Of a stretch of DNA of 35,723 nt, positions 25,910-31,648 are shown piece after piece. Each line of letters begins with the position of its first letter. Position 1 is the stretch's first letter. Source of the DNA: an uncultured Opitutia bacterium (GTDB taxonomy: Bacteria; Verrucomicrobiota; Verrucomicrobiia; Opitutales; UBA953); NCBI GenBank assembly GCA_903882335.1, contig CAIRWP010000153.1, forward strand, positions 1 through 35,723, written 5' to 3'. Below the pieces are notes generated by a model. It saw only the letters and a program-made list of their open reading frames with translations, was not told where the DNA came from and did not search any database. Position numbers and translations under genes: made by a program.

Positions 25910-26998
25910 ATGTCCCACCCCCTCCCCGCCCTCCTCCTCGGCCTGGCCACCCTCGGGCCGCTCCTCGGCGCCGACGCCGCCAAGTCGACCGGCCCCGGAC
26001 TCCCCGACGTACCTGCGCTCTTCGACAAGCGCGCCTTGGTCAAGCCGATCACCGAGCTCGAAGGCACGCTTACCGACGGCTCCAAGTCCATCGTCTACAA
26101 GATTGTCGTGCGCTCCCTGCCGCCGGACCATGAGATGGGCCCGTGGGCCCCGGCGACCCTGAAGGACAAAGGCGGCTTCTGGGAAGATACCGTGGATAAG
26201 AAGCTCTACCGCGTCGACGCAGACTACCTGAAGATGCTCAACAAACGAGGCTGGGACATGTTCGAGGCCGACGGCACCGTCCACCGCACCAAGGACCGCA
26301 CCGAGTTCGACAAGGTCGCCCGTCAGGAGCTGGGCGGCTGGACCTTCGAGCAAGCCAAGGCTAGCGGGGTGGTCAACTCGATCATCGAACTGAAGCCCCT
26401 CGAGCAGATCGTCACGATCTTCCTGCCGAAGAATCCGAAGGCCACCGCCAAGGTCACCCCACTCCGTCAGGCCAGGTTCTCCCCGCGCTCCGGCCTCGGA
26501 CTCAGCGTCAACGGCATCCGCTTCTTCCCGCCGGAGCCGGTCGGCCGGATCACGGCCTTCCATAACATCGCCCCGCTGGACCCGCAGGGTGGCCACACGG
26601 GCTTCGGTCATGAATACCACTACCACCGCGCCCCTTCCGTGATGAACGAGGACAAGTCGGGCAAGATTGTGGGCTTCGCGTTGGACGGCTTCGCCATCCG
26701 CGGGCCGACGGAGACCGACGGCAGCAAGCCGAAGGGGCTGGATAGCATCAGCGGTCACGAGCACGACGGCCTGCCGTACCACTACCACGTCAGCGACCAG
26801 TGGCCCTACGTGGTCAGCGGCTTCAAGGGCCCGCTCGGCACGGCCGGCCTGGGCGACCTGGACAAGTGCGACGCCACCCAGTCCTCCGGCGGTCCCGGCG
26901 GCGGCGGCGAAGGCAAGGGCGGCAAAGGCGGCAAGAAAGGTCCTCCGGGCGGCGGCAACGGCGGCCCGCCCGGCGGTGGCCCTCCGGGCGGCAAATAA
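25910..26998 (+). CDS. Secreted YHYH-domain protein with Gly-rich tail
   Basis: 362-aa exported protein. A signal peptide (MSHPLPALLLGLATLGPLLGADA) starts at ATG 25910; the ORF-track TTG six codons earlier is less likely. The central part carries two YHYH motifs (GHEYHYHRAP about 236-239 and GLPYHYHVSDQWPY about 290-293) with LDGFAIRGP between them, which is the YHYH domain; its function is not established, although the histidines suggest metal binding. After about residue 325 the protein ends in a low-complexity Gly/Lys/Pro tail (GGKGGKKGPPGGGNGGPPGG). A WTFEQAKASGVVNSI segment precedes the domain. The sulfatase gene follows 9 nt later, so they are probably one transcription unit. Confidence 0.8.
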   Translation: MSHPLPALLLGLATLGPLLGADAAKSTGPGLPDVPALFDKRALVKPITELEGTLTDGSKSIVYKIVVRSLPPDHEMGPWAPATLKDKGGFWEDTVDKKLYRVDADYLKMLNKRGWDMFEADGTVHRTKDRTEFDKVARQELGGWTFEQAKASGVVNSIIELKPLEQIVTIFLPKNPKATAKVTPLRQARFSPRSGLGLSVNGIRFFPPEPVGRITAFHNIAPLDPQGGHTGFGHEYHYHRAPSVMNEDKSGKIVGFALDGFAIRGPTETDGSKPKGLDSISGHEHDGLPYHYHVSDQWPYVVSGFKGPLGTAGLGDLDKCDATQSSGGPGGGGEGKGGKGGKKGPPGGGNGGPPGGGPPGGK

Positions 26999-27007
26999 AT
27001 ATCCACG

Positions 27008-28327
27008 ATGATACGCGTCACGCTGTTCCTCCTGCTGGGCCTGCTCCCGGTCTTCGCCCAGAAAGCGCCCAGACCGACGAACGTGCTCGTGCTCGTCGCG
27101 GATGACCTAGGCTGGAACGGAGTCAGCTACCACAACCCGAAGATGACGACGCCGGCGCTGGCTAAGCTGGCGAAGGAAGGCGTGCAGCTCGAACGGTTCT
27201 ACGGTTATCCGGTCTGCAGCCCGGCCCGCTCCGCGCTGCTGACGGGGATGATGCCCCGCCGCTTCGGCGTCGTCGACGTGATCGGACCGGGTCAGCAGGG
27301 GATCCCCCAAGGCACCGCCACGCTCGCGTCCACGCTGCAGAAAGCGGGCTATGCGACCTCGCTGATCGGCAAGTGGCACCTCGGTACCAACCCCGGGCCG
27401 CTCGGACACGGCTTCGACCATTTCTACGGTTTCACGGGGGCCGAGCTGGATTACTTCAAGCACGTCGACCAACGCGGCAAGCCTGACTGGTGGCGCGACG
27501 GCAAACCGATCGAGGAGGCAGGCTACACCACCACGCTGTTCGCCGACGAGGCCATCAAGCAGCTCAAGCAGCGCGACCCGCGGAAGCCTTTCTTCCTGGA
27601 GGTGGCCTTCAATGCGCCGCACGCGACCCTGGCCGCCCCCCCGGAACTCCTCGCGAAACACCAGACCGATGGGCTCTACGGCGCCGTGGTTGACGGACTC
27701 GACCAAGGCATCGGCCGCATCCTAGCGACGCTGGATGAACAAGGCCTGCGCGCGACCACTTTGGTGATCTTCTGCTCCGACAACGGCGCTTCGCGGCGGA
27801 TGAGCTCCAACACCCCGCTGAACAGCGGTAAGGATACAGTCTTCGAGGGCGGCATCCGCGTCCCCGCCATCGTGCGCTGGCCGGGCAAGGTGCCCGCCGG
27901 AGTGCAGAGCCAACAGCCGGTCGCGATGCACGACCTCTTCCCTAGCATCCTCGCCGCGCTCGGCCTGACGACCGCCAAGGAGCTCAAGCTCGATGGTACC
28001 GATCAGTGGCCCGCTTTGGTCGCCGGCAAGACCCTGCCCCGCCCCGCCTTCCTCATCGCCTCCCACGACATCGCCTGCTTCGACGGCGACTGGAAACTGA
28101 TCGAAGCCGGCGACGGGAAACGTTCCCTCTTCAACCTCGCAAAGGATATCGGCGAGTCGAAGGATCTCGCCGGCGAACAGCCCGAGATGCTGAAGGCGCT
28201 GGGCGCCAAGTTGGACGAACTCAAGAAAGGCCTCCCCGCGGCCGCGGAGCGCCGCGGCGTCGGACCAGGCAAGGGCCCCGGGGCCGGCAAAGGCCCGCCC
28301 GGCAAAGGCAAAGGCTTAGCAAAGTGA
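27008..28327 (+). CDS. Secreted type I sulfatase
   Basis: 439-aa formylglycine-dependent sulfatase of the alkaline phosphatase superfamily, expected to hydrolyse sulfate esters, probably on a sulfated polysaccharide, outside the cytoplasm. Signal peptide MIRVTLFLLLGLLPVFA. Metal ligands are in NVLVLVADDLGWNG; the modification motif is YPVCSPARSALLTG (Cys about 70, CxPxR); SLIGKWHLG, NAPHATL and VIFCSDNGA supply further active-site residues. The C-terminus has a short Gly/Pro/Lys tail (GPGKGPGAGKGPPGKGKG) resembling that of the preceding YHYH protein. A formylglycine-generating enzyme is not in the window. Substrate unknown. Confidence 0.93.
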   Translation: MIRVTLFLLLGLLPVFAQKAPRPTNVLVLVADDLGWNGVSYHNPKMTTPALAKLAKEGVQLERFYGYPVCSPARSALLTGMMPRRFGVVDVIGPGQQGIPQGTATLASTLQKAGYATSLIGKWHLGTNPGPLGHGFDHFYGFTGAELDYFKHVDQRGKPDWWRDGKPIEEAGYTTTLFADEAIKQLKQRDPRKPFFLEVAFNAPHATLAAPPELLAKHQTDGLYGAVVDGLDQGIGRILATLDEQGLRATTLVIFCSDNGASRRMSSNTPLNSGKDTVFEGGIRVPAIVRWPGKVPAGVQSQQPVAMHDLFPSILAALGLTTAKELKLDGTDQWPALVAGKTLPRPAFLIASHDIACFDGDWKLIEAGDGKRSLFNLAKDIGESKDLAGEQPEMLKALGAKLDELKKGLPAAAERRGVGPGKGPGAGKGPPGKGKGLAK

Positions 28328-28331
28328 CGGC

Positions 28332-28347
28332 TTAATCTTCCCTTAAG
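28332..28347 (+). promoter_or_regulatory. TTAA direct repeat with 11-bp period, upstream of the PEBP gene
   Basis: CTTAAT-CTTCC-CTTAAG gives two TTAA-centred units 11 bp apart in the short gap between the sulfatase stop and ATG 28371. TATCCT (28359-28364), 11 bp further on, could be a -10 box, the geometry expected when a PhoB/OmpR-type activator replaces the -35. It matches the repeat before the YHYH gene in word and period. Confidence 0.45.
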
Positions 28348-28370
28348 TCGTCCTCGGTTATCCTGTCCAC

Positions 28371-29066
28371 ATGTCCGTCCTCGGCTCCTGGCTCGCCGCC
28401 ACGCTCGCCTGCCTGGCCACGCTCGCCCTGCCGGCCGCCGGGGAGACCCGCGCCAAGGGAGGCCAAGGGGGCGAGATGGCGAAAGGCGGGGTCGACCTGG
28501 TCGCCGCCGCCAAGCCGCATCCCGGCCCGTCTCCGGCCTTCACGCTGACCAGCCCCGCCGTGAAGGATGGTGGTGCCCTCCCGACCGAGTTCACGGGCGA
28601 CGGCGCCGGCGCCAGCCTGCCGCTGAGCTGGAGTAATGTGCCGCGTGGCACTGTCTCGCTCGCGCTGGTGATGCACCACCTGGACCCGGAGGGAAAGACG
28701 AAGGTCTACTGGCTGGTGGTCGACATCGACCCGAAGACGACTTCCGTCGCGAAGAACGCCCCCGACTTCGGACGACTGGGCCTGAGCACCGTCCATGACC
28801 GCGTCGAGTATGCCCCACCCCACTCCAAGGGCCCGGGTCTCAAGAAGTACGTCCTCACCCTGTTCGCGCTATCCGCCAAGCCCAACCTACCCGACGCCGC
28901 TCAACCGATCTCGCTCGAGACCTTGCTTCCCGTGATGAAGGGAAAGATCCTTGGCGCCGCCGACCTCACGGTCACCTACACCCGACCCACCGGGGCGTCC
29001 GACGAGCCAGCGAAGCGTCCGGCCCGGCCGGGACCGCCGCGACCGGCCGGCGGTAAAGGCGACTAA
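28371..29066 (+). CDS. YbhB/YbcL-type PEBP family protein, exported
   Basis: 231-aa phosphatidylethanolamine-binding-protein family member with a signal peptide (WLAATLACLATLALPAAG). The PEBP core runs from about residue 55: FTLTSPAVKDGGALPTEFTGDGAGASLPLSWSNVPRGTVSLALVMHHLD, then YWLVVDIDP and YAPPHSKGPGLKKYVLTLFALS, which are the anion-pocket blocks. Bacterial PEBP proteins have no clear role. A Lys/Gly stretch (AKGGQGGEMAKGG) follows the signal and the C-terminus is a Pro/Lys/Arg/Gly tail (PARPGPPRPAGGKGD), similar in kind to those of its two upstream neighbours. The HupE-like gene follows 50 nt later. Confidence 0.87.
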   Translation: MSVLGSWLAATLACLATLALPAAGETRAKGGQGGEMAKGGVDLVAAAKPHPGPSPAFTLTSPAVKDGGALPTEFTGDGAGASLPLSWSNVPRGTVSLALVMHHLDPEGKTKVYWLVVDIDPKTTSVAKNAPDFGRLGLSTVHDRVEYAPPHSKGPGLKKYVLTLFALSAKPNLPDAAQPISLETLLPVMKGKILGAADLTVTYTRPTGASDEPAKRPARPGPPRPAGGKGD

Positions 29067-29116
29067 CCAATCGCTTGCGGGTTGCCTGCGAGCAGGCCGG
29101 CGGCTACTCCCTGCGC

Positions 29117-30253
29117 GTGACCTTCCTGCGTCCGGTTTTCCTCGCCTGCGTCGCGTTCCTCGCGGCCACGTTGTCCGCCCATCCCGAATGGAAACCGGCT
29201 TACTGCGTCGGCGTGATCGAGGATGAGCGCTTCGACCTGACCATCAAGTTCGATGTCCCTTCCTACCTCGTCGGCAAGCACCCGAAGGAAGCCACCGTCA
29301 AGGAACTCGATGACCTGATGTTCGACTCCGGCCGGCTGCCCGCCGCCTACGCGCGCGAGCCGGCGGAGTTCCTGCGCGGAGTCCGCGTCCTCGTCGACGG
29401 GAAGGAGACGCCGGTTGAGCTCGTCGCGTTCCCGACCGCAGTCGAGGTCAAGGCCCAGTCCGCCAAGCAAGGCGAGGAGGAGCGCTACCCGGTCCTGCTC
29501 AACGCCAAGCTGCGTACCCGGATCCCCCGCGACACGGCCAAGGTGGAGGTGATGTTCCCGTCCGCCCTCGGGACGGTGCTCACCAACCTGCGCCGCGGGA
29601 TGGATTCGCAGGTGGTCATGAACGTGGCCCCGGGTGAGCGCGGCGAGTTCATCATCGGCGAGGTGCGCCTCACCCTCGGCGACTTCCTCCGCGAGGGCTT
29701 CGTGCACGTCATCCCCGACGGTTGGGATCACTGCCTCTTCATGCTGGCGATGTTTCTCGGGGCCGCCTCCCTCGCCCAGGCCCTGACGCGCTCCCTCGTC
29801 TTCACCCTCGGCCATGCGCTCACGCTCGGGCTGGTCGCCGCCGGCCAGCTACCCCCGGTGGGCGACTGGATCGAACCCGTGATCGCGGCCACCATCGGCG
29901 CCGGCGGGGTCCTCGCCTGGAGGAACCGCGGCGCGAGCCGACCCGGGAACTCGGCGCCCCTGCTGCTGATTCCCCTCATCTTCGGCCTCGTGCATGGGCT
30001 CGGTTTCGCCGCCGCGGTCACGGATCAGCTGGACGGCTGGGGACGCACGCAGGTCGTCCAGCTGCTCATCGGCTTCAACGTCGGGGTCGAGGCGGCCCAG
30101 GTCGCGGTCATTCTCGCGGCCGCCGTGCTCCTGAGTCTCGCCGTCAAGGCCCGCGCCAACGAGTCGCTGCTGCGCCGCGCGCTCGGCGCCGCGATCGCCC
30201 TCGCCGGTTTCAGCCTGATGGCCTGGCGCTGTTGGGAGCTCCGGTTCGGCTGA
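29117..30253 (+). CDS. HupE/UreJ-2 family membrane protein
   Basis: 378-aa membrane protein with a large N-terminal extracytoplasmic part and a C-terminal HupE/UreJ-like bundle. GTG 29117 yields a clean signal peptide (FLACVAFLAATLSA, then HPEW); the ORF-track TTG at 29075 adds 14 poorer residues. Residues about 20-190 are beta-rich; from about 195 the family block GFVHVIPDGWDHCLFMLAMFLG begins, followed by LVFTLGHALTLGL, EPVIAATIGAGG, FGLVHGLGFAAAV and IGFNVGVEAAQVAVI, with conserved His/Asp in membrane segments suggesting metal (nickel or other) handling. No urease or hydrogenase genes are nearby. Ends 6 nt from the convergent sulfatase. Confidence 0.83.
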   Translation: MTFLRPVFLACVAFLAATLSAHPEWKPAYCVGVIEDERFDLTIKFDVPSYLVGKHPKEATVKELDDLMFDSGRLPAAYAREPAEFLRGVRVLVDGKETPVELVAFPTAVEVKAQSAKQGEEERYPVLLNAKLRTRIPRDTAKVEVMFPSALGTVLTNLRRGMDSQVVMNVAPGERGEFIIGEVRLTLGDFLREGFVHVIPDGWDHCLFMLAMFLGAASLAQALTRSLVFTLGHALTLGLVAAGQLPPVGDWIEPVIAATIGAGGVLAWRNRGASRPGNSAPLLLIPLIFGLVHGLGFAAAVTDQLDGWGRTQVVQLLIGFNVGVEAAQVAVILAAAVLLSLAVKARANESLLRRALGAAIALAGFSLMAWRCWELRFG

Positions 30254-30259
30254 GACCGC

Positions 30260-31648
30260 TCAGAGGCGACCGACCGGACGCTTCCCGGCGTCGAGGGCGG
30301 CGCGTTCCTTCGCCGCCAGCTCCTTCAGCTGCGTCACGACTTCCGGGTGGGCGTCCTTGACGTCGTTGCGCTCGGCGGGATCGGCCTCGAGGTCGAACAG
30401 CGCGAAACCGATTTCTTTCTGCTGGGTCTTCATCGGGCCGCCGTCGTGTTCGGCGGGCTTCATGTCGTCGTAGCTGCGGTACGTGTGCGGCAGATGCAGT
30501 TTCCAGCGGCCTTGCCGGATCGCCTCCAGCTTGTCGCCGTAGTAATAAGGGAAGACCTCGCGCGCCACCGCGCTCTCGCCACGCAGGACCGGCAGGAAGG
30601 TGCGTCCGTCGATGGGCTTGGCCGGCGCCGGGGCGCCGCAGGCTTCGACCAACGTCGGCAGTAGGTCGAGATTCGCCGCGACCGCCCGGGTGGAGGAAGC
30701 GGGCTTCACCTTGCCCGGCCAGCGGATGATGAAAGGCACGCGCACGCCGCCCTCCCAGGTGGTGCCCTTGCCCTCGCGCAGACCGCCCGTCACGCCGGCA
30801 TGACGTCCGAAGTTAAGCCAAGGCCCGTTGTCGCTGGTGAAAATCACGATCGTATCCTGCGCGAGCCCCTTGCTCTCCAACGCATCGAGGACCCGACCGA
30901 CGGTATCATCCAGCTCCGCCAAGGTATCCGCGTAAGGCGTCGGCCCCTTGCCCTTGAAATCCTTGGAAGCGCCGAGCGGGGTGTGCGGCATCGACGTGGC
31001 CAGGTACAGGAAGAAGGGGCGGTCGATGGTATCCCGGATGAACTTCGTCGCGCGGAAGCCCTGCCGGACCGTCAGGAGATCCATATCTACCCAGTCCTCC
31101 AGCTCGCCGAAGGGCACGCCATCAACGATGCGCGGAAGCTTCGGGTACATCTTCTTGCGGGATACGTCCCCCGGGTAATACCCCAGCGGCCACATGTCGT
31201 TGGAATAGGGAATGATCAGCGACTCATCGAACCCTTGCTTGTTCGGCAGGAAGGTCAGGGCGTCGCCGAGGTGCCACTTGCCGACCACGCCGGTGCGGTA
31301 GCCGGCGCGCTGGAAGAGCTCCGCCACGGTCTCCTCTTCGTTATTGAGACCGAGCTTGGAGGCGGGCGGCAAAGCGGTCCCGCCCAGCCCCAGCCGATTG
31401 GGATAACAACCCGTCAGCAAGGCGCAGCGGGAGGAGGTGCAGACCGCCTGGGCCACGTAGAACTGCTCGAAGCGCATTCCCTGTTTGGCCAGCTGGTCGA
31501 TCCGCGGCGTCTTGTTCTGGGTGGAACCGTAGCAACCGAGGTCACCCCAGCCAAGGTCGTCGGCCATGATGAGCACGACATTGGGCGGCTTAGCCAGCAA
31601 CGAGCTGGCAAAAGCAATAAATAAGAGCCAGGCCGGGGTGCAGCGCAT
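30260..31648 (-). CDS. Secreted type I sulfatase (CTSSR variant)
   Basis: 462-aa sulfatase with signal peptide (WLLFIAFASSLLA, then KPPN). NVVLIMADDLGWGDLGCYG holds metal ligands; the formylglycine motif is AVCTSSRCALLTGCYPNR (Cys about 70), i.e. CxSxR rather than CxPxR. GVVGKWHLGD, SMPHTPL, VIFTSDNGPW and GKGTTWEGGVRVPFIIRWPGK are further active-site and family blocks. It differs from the upstream sulfatase in length and tail (no Gly/Lys extension), so the two are not recent duplicates. A Shine-Dalgarno AAGGA lies about 6 nt before ATG 31648. Likely acts on sulfated glycans. Confidence 0.93.
   Translation of the reverse strand: MRCTPAWLLFIAFASSLLAKPPNVVLIMADDLGWGDLGCYGSTQNKTPRIDQLAKQGMRFEQFYVAQAVCTSSRCALLTGCYPNRLGLGGTALPPASKLGLNNEEETVAELFQRAGYRTGVVGKWHLGDALTFLPNKQGFDESLIIPYSNDMWPLGYYPGDVSRKKMYPKLPRIVDGVPFGELEDWVDMDLLTVRQGFRATKFIRDTIDRPFFLYLATSMPHTPLGASKDFKGKGPTPYADTLAELDDTVGRVLDALESKGLAQDTIVIFTSDNGPWLNFGRHAGVTGGLREGKGTTWEGGVRVPFIIRWPGKVKPASSTRAVAANLDLLPTLVEACGAPAPAKPIDGRTFLPVLRGESAVAREVFPYYYGDKLEAIRQGRWKLHLPHTYRSYDDMKPAEHDGGPMKTQQKEIGFALFDLEADPAERNDVKDAHPEVVTQLKELAAKERAALDAGKRPVGRL

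Follow-up and report, generated by a model that had tools for sequence, protein, structure and literature searches.

Several described systems resemble one part or another of the locus reported here, three adjacent genes for exported proteins (YHYH, sulfatase and PEBP) with Gly/Lys/Pro-rich extensions in a 35,723-nt stretch of verrucomicrobial DNA (hereafter the window). In human HSulf-2, a basic hydrophilic domain recognises the anionic substrate (PMC10721642). Lysine-rich low-complexity regions (LCRs) of other proteins bind DNA or nucleic acid electrostatically (PMC6821194). The YHYH domain has been predicted, in phage tail proteins, to be a metal-dependent (Zn) hydrolase with conserved histidines and an aspartate (PMC7824862). 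Freshwater Verrucomicrobia are rich in sulfatases, which are encoded near polysaccharide genes and are thought to target polysaccharides (PMC5615132). Our literature searches returned no description of a sulfatase/PEBP/YHYH cluster, nor of one tract type concentrated on linked exported esterases.

The window makes up one of the 375 contigs in a 2.4 Mb assembly (91% complete, genome GC content 67%). Its closest relatives are freshwater Opitutae (Verrucomicrobiota), and the host is a lake-dwelling verrucomicrobial bacterium; the nearest named record is Opitutae bacterium BS10, with a YHYH protein that is 96% identical. As the first-pass annotation had described them, tail letters included, the three genes encode exported proteins of unrelated Pfam families (PF14240, PF00884 and PF01161). 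All lie on the plus strand and each opens with a signal-peptide-like stretch. Conserved tails, a guild of tract-bearing proteins and domain fusions together point to a conserved module of exported ester hydrolases whose cationic tracts are under selection.

Selected tracts at the locus

The background proteome was predicted from 1.12 Mb of sequence of a near relative (genome G031), with a gene caller trained against shadow frames. Among 763 proteins of at least 100 aa, only three have a summed Gly, Pro and Lys fraction (GPK) of at least 60% in their last 30 residues. Two are the YHYH protein and the sulfatase of the locus, and the third is another sulfatase, which adjoins a metallophosphatase with an N-terminal KGKGGGGKGKGG. 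By a looser criterion, a dense 15-residue G/K/P tract anywhere in the protein, 11 of 786 proteins qualify (two of which we take to be ribosomal proteins). Three of the 11 are consecutive at the locus (permutation P ~0.0015), in agreement with the earlier view that their grouping is more than chance.

The first-pass annotation had assigned similar C-terminal tails to all three proteins. This holds for YHYH and the sulfatase. The PEBP C-tail was ruled out as a tail of the same kind by its GPK and near-neutral charge: its GPK of 0.40 is unexceptional, within the top 33 of the 763 proteins, and orthologues show an EEKRPARKGP / KEEKRPPRREEGAK segment with a net charge of 0 to +2. The AKGGQGG stretch reported behind the PEBP signal peptide is indeed present at 28452; an N-terminal tract, which unlike the C-tail is unusual against the background proteome, occurs there in 20 of 20 orthologues and is KGKGGKGGKGG-like in most. 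Since the PEBP C-tail is different and its N-terminal tract comparable, the locus carries two C-tails and one N-terminal tract. The pattern itself is genuine, is under selection and extends further than first described; the part concerning the PEBP C-tail was wrong.

Aligning orthologues had been proposed as a check, and in them the tails co-occur. Not one of the 28 unfused YHYH proteins and 32 orthologous sulfatases (the window and three fused proteins included) lacks a tail. A codon-level comparison of 14 close pairs gave a ratio of non-synonymous to synonymous change (pN/pS) of 0.146 for the tails versus 0.078 for the cores. Gap-free pairs, computed separately, gave 0.145–0.153, so alignment freedom is not the cause of the low value. 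For PEBP, the ratio was 0.198 in the C-tail and 0.215 in the N-terminal region. The YHYH and sulfatase tails are under purifying selection.

It could be argued that the tails are neutral low-complexity DNA arising by slippage of GC-rich repeats, an explanation already raised in the first-pass annotation. Tail DNA has a GC content of 0.76–0.79 versus 0.65–0.66 in the gene bodies, and in-frame indels are frequent in it. However, pN/pS is only ~0.15, AT-rich Lys codons are retained, and synonymous codons are mixed, with all four Gly, all four Pro and both Lys codons in use. One distant locus (L062; L-numbers label the compared loci) keeps a Gly/Arg/Lys tail at a third-position GC content of 0.40, and the census described below finds the tract far in excess of its control. 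Because pN/pS is low and all synonymous codons are used, slippage alone is not the explanation; we strongly disfavour it and regard it as extremely improbable.

The YHYH and sulfatase tails range from 17 to 44 residues and are hard to align, and their net charge is steady at +4 to +7, with Arg partly replacing Lys in Verrucomicrobiaceae and at L047. The standard deviation of the charge is 0.8–0.9 versus 2.6–2.7 for composition-matched random tails; as the compared orthologues are related, this constancy is suggestive and does not amount to a formal test. A constant positive charge would fit polymer binding, which the first-pass annotation had suggested alongside a common destination or co-assembly. 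The tails offer a clean case of a bacterial low-complexity tract apparently selected for charge over exact sequence, which can be tested by charge swaps.

Carriers of the tract

We searched 55 genomes of the genus with a 20-base degenerate codon pattern for GKGGKGG, using the reversed pattern as control. There were 116 matches versus 13 for the control, in 36 of the 55 genomes. Reading 52 distinct genes around the matches (the unread ones are mostly at known YHYH/PEBP loci), we found 43 to encode YHYH, PEBP, sulfatase or metallophosphatase. Eighteen have YHYH: 7 alone, 10 with gbd (a conserved C-terminal domain, see below) and 1 with PEBP as well. The tract is N-terminal in the 8 PEBPs, C-terminal in the 6 sulfatases, and N-terminal, after the signal peptide, in the 11 metallophosphatases. 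At the loci where both genes were read (L244, L252), the tract-bearing metallophosphatase adjoins a sulfatase. The remainder are 4 genes for a small exported protein and 5 others. Since the tract also occurs on metallophosphatases, YHYH-gbd proteins and small exported proteins, its carriers make up a guild of exported proteins and not a complex of three.

Some of these carriers deserve separate mention. The small exported family (L249, L256, L260, L261, L263), weakly similar to Metal_resist, has KG-rich segments and, close to the C-terminus, the same tract. The pairing of a KGG-tract metallophosphatase with a sulfatase that is itself KGG-tailed is seen at L104 (G031 C15:54910-58016) and again at L244 and L252. 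A near-identical YHYH-gbd gene lies at two contig ends of G031 (C7:123767-125650 and C8:627-2486), probably an assembly overlap.

Within the host's own 2.4 Mb assembly, the shorter GKGGKG pattern occurs once, in the YHYH tail of the window. This genome encodes ~40 sulfatases; among the 26 whose C-ends were read, only the sulfatase of the locus has an end that is strongly GPK-rich and basic. Sulfatases adjacent or fused to YHYH have a mean tail charge of 5.1 and GPK of 0.65, versus 2.9 and 0.30 in other sulfatases. Genome-wide, the tract is almost confined to this guild of exported proteins. The same genome encodes a second YHYH protein (C225, L001:1261-2334), and this too has a G/P/K-rich tail at its end, GGQGGAGQRKGGPGQGKGGPGMRKGPGG...

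Outside the genus, the exact GKGGKGG motif is not enriched over the control in the order, and its matches fall in none of these families; the exact motif is therefore lineage-specific. Basic R/K/G/P tails persist there on most YHYH-adjacent sulfatases.

Nearly all tract-bearing proteins are exported and their tails are mostly terminal, as would be expected of an export, sorting or retention signal for a dedicated surface-display machinery. However, most exported proteins have no tract, including nearly all sulfatases read in the host's own genome. A search for an LPXTG- or PEP-CTERM-like sorting tag revealed neither a conserved motif nor a hydrophobic segment, and the YHYH and sulfatase tails end in G/K/P. 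The tracts differ too much in sequence, length and position (C-terminal, N-terminal or internal) to be a sorting motif, and we regard a sorting signal as very unlikely.

Fusions, linkers and a possible tether

The families of the locus are joined in single proteins elsewhere. YHYH-sulfatase fusions occur in more distant Verrucomicrobiota (L056, L061, L062), and YHYH-linker-PEBP-linker-gbd proteins, some with EF-hands, at seven loci (L028, L056, L057, L155, L156, L158, L160). At L155, L156, L161 and L163, YHYH-PEBP genes abut or overlap a basic-tailed sulfatase, and at L165 (9811-14001) a sulfatase-Ig-metallophosphatase is encoded as one protein downstream of YHYH. These fusions are the strongest evidence that the YHYH, sulfatase and PEBP families act together, and the conservation of their neighbourhood supports the same view. 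A functional module of conserved exported ester hydrolases is well supported.

The gbd domain (NVYADNWF.LYINGKL...DLDNTVIFRTKV) follows YHYH or PEBP at L029:2398-2961, L028, L056 and L057 and has no match in Pfam. At L066:8139-8900 it is a separate open reading frame (ORF) beside YHYH and PEBP.

The same fusions supply the main rival explanation, that the tracts are flexible linkers of a modular exported protein, left as tails by fusion and fission of its domains (YHYH, PEBP, EF-hand, sulfatase, phosphatase, gbd) and serving only as spacers or for solubility. LCRs were, after all, initially viewed as neutral linkers (PMC6821194). In fused homologues (L056, L061, L062; L028, L057, L155) G/P/K/R-rich tracts lie between the domains, at the positions of the tails, as linker-type LCRs do. 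YHYH and sulfatase genes overlap or almost touch (in the window the sulfatase start codon is 9 nt past the YHYH stop codon). The tree places the unfused L047 together with L056 and L061, which are fused; the fusion state has therefore changed. However, flexibility does not seem to be the only constraint, given a pN/pS of ~0.15 and, with due caution for the relatedness of the orthologues, the constant charge of the free C-tails. The tract also occurs as an N-terminal extension, between signal peptide and metallophosphatase domain. Finally, the linker of the YHYH-sulfatase fusions loses its Lys, yet the sulfatase C-terminus of the same proteins stays basic, at +3 to +6 (n=3, related), which fits a charge role at free termini. 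The linker in YHYH-PEBP and YHYH-gbd fusions is often Lys-rich. As the picture of linker charge is mixed, we keep the linker explanation as a serious rival; it is a real possibility, if on balance a doubtful one.

The reading that we favour, tentatively, is that the tails act as electrostatic tethers or stickers on the exported ester-hydrolase module of YHYH, formylglycine sulfatase and PEBP, with a HupE/UreJ membrane protein alongside. We infer that the tails are disordered, lie outside the cytoplasm and bind a polymer. The C-tails of YHYH and the sulfatase, like the N-terminal tract of PEBP, are selected cationic Gly/Lys/Pro extensions, in which Gly/Pro spacers would hold ~4–7 net positive charges. 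Outside the inner membrane, these charges could bind an anionic polymer common to the enzymes: a sulfated or phosphorylated polysaccharide substrate, lipopolysaccharide or capsule, or possibly extracellular DNA or polyphosphate. Binding would keep the esterases near their substrate and near one another, raising the local concentration.

Four observations weigh against such a tether. The constancy of charge comes from orthologues that are related and are not independent observations. In the alphaproteobacterial Jannaschia (L066), consecutive YHYH, PEBP and gbd ORFs have no tails. Of six sulfatases that adjoin YHYH and belong to a more distant subfamily, two (L157, L164) have no basic tail. The linker of the YHYH-sulfatase fusions carries little charge (+1 to +3), as could be expected of a plain linker. 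A bolder version of the tether, which we consider rather unlikely, would make the GKGGKGG tract a modular address that gathers YHYH, PEBP, sulfatase and metallophosphatase by electrostatic co-assembly on a cell-surface anionic polymer, a charge-defined and sequence-degenerate counterpart of dockerin and cohesin.

Predicted enzymes and known systems

The features of the locus are listed in the table below. HupE/UreJ-like and second sulfatase genes were correctly annotated as tail-less. The former accompanies the locus in most Opitutae, and the latter is tail-less in orthologues too.

Table. Features of the YHYH-sulfatase-PEBP locus (positions in the window)
Feature	Coordinates	Strand	Evidence
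YHYH-family exported protein, 362 aa	25910..26998	+	PF14240 E 6.7e-10
YHYH C-terminal G/P/K tail QSSGGPGGGGEGKGGKGGKKGPPGGGNGGPPGGGPPGGK, net charge +4	26879..26998	+	orthologue comparison, pN/pS 0.14-0.15
S1-type formylglycine sulfatase, exported	27008..28327	+	PF00884 E 8.9e-60, 203 bits
Sulfatase C-S-P-A-R formylglycine motif, residues 70-74	27215..27229	+	C70, P72, R74 invariant
Sulfatase C-terminal G/P/K tail AAAERRGVGPGKGPGAGKGPPGKGKGLAK, net charge +6	28238..28327	+	orthologue comparison
Exported PEBP (YbhB/YbcL-like)	28371..29066	+	Pfam PBP PF01161 E 6.7e-18, 65.8 bits
PEBP N-terminal tract AKGGQGGEMAKGG, after signal peptide	28452..28490	+	orthologue comparison
PEBP C-tail PTGASDEPAKRPARPGPPRPAGGKGD, near-neutral, other type than YHYH/sulfatase tails	28986..29066	+	charge, pN/pS
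HupE/UreJ-like membrane protein, tail-less	29075..30253	+	PF13795 E 5.1e-28
Second sulfatase, convergent, tail-less	30260..31648	-	PF00884 E 6.8e-61

The YHYH protein scores 39.7 bits against a PF14240 cut-off of 25. The residues of the predicted metal site (H229, YHYH at 236–239, D259) are present, and alignments of 25 and 33 YHYH domains show H229, H237, H239 and D259 to be conserved with distant YHYH proteins. Following the published prediction, it is a putative Zn-dependent hydrolase. An AlphaFold2 (AF2) model of the window's own protein was poor (predicted local distance difference test, pLDDT, 67; no fold matches), probably because of a subfamily insert. This apparent insert (window 26144-26395, YHYH residues ~79-162; GGFWEDTVDKKLYRVDADYLKML...EFDKVARQELGGWTFEQA) separates the LP.DH strand from the YHYH core; it is absent from canonical members, and a similar stretch occurs in L172. 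A canonical YHYH domain (L155:6863-7471, minus strand, model mb525067e6952) was modelled by AF2 with a pLDDT of 92. With this model, a PDB fold search gave no match to a solved structure at E below 0.3 (best E 0.33), and only viral YHYH proteins were matched by fold. A sequence search gave no solved homologue of YHYH. The model may represent a fold not seen before that holds a His/Asp site. Fusion, neighbourhood and the common tract link YHYH, with its confidently predicted fold, to sulfatases, PEBP and phosphatases, which gives a testable claim on the role of YHYH and of bacterial exported PEBPs.

The sulfatase has an intact CSPAR motif, and its metal and active-site residues are invariant in 21 orthologues; it belongs with the formylglycine (S1) sulfatases. 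FGE-family proteins, relatives of the maturation enzyme, are encoded in the same genome (PF03781, E 5.7e-81), and the solved structures nearest by sequence are polysaccharide sulfatases (S1-19 and carrageenan). The PEBP, the sole PEBP match in the genome, exceeds the PBP profile cut-off (65.8 bits versus 24) and stays below that of TIGR00481 (38.3 versus 57.75).

Human HSulf-1 and HSulf-2 are likewise secreted sulfatases with a basic non-catalytic segment, which in them engages an anionic polymer substrate (PMC10721642). The HSulf-2 domain, however, has 307 aa with Lys/Arg clusters, whereas the tails here are 17–44 aa of Gly/Lys/Pro and are common to non-sulfatase neighbours; the comparison is offered as an analogy without homology. 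Prokaryotic LCRs can also be Gly/Pro/Lys-rich, conserved and sometimes terminal (PMC6821194), but what sets the present case apart is the concentration of a single tract type in functionally linked exported esterase families encoded by adjacent genes. The YHYH protein shares the conserved histidines and aspartate of the predicted metal-dependent hydrolases of PF14240 (PMC7824862). It differs from the phage tail proteins of that prediction in being bacterial and exported, in its adjacency to or fusion with sulfatase and PEBP, and in its cationic tail. As in other freshwater Verrucomicrobia, sulfatases are many (PMC5615132), but at this locus and its relatives the sulfatase is paired with YHYH, PEBP or metallophosphatase, not with glycoside hydrolases or PSCyt genes.

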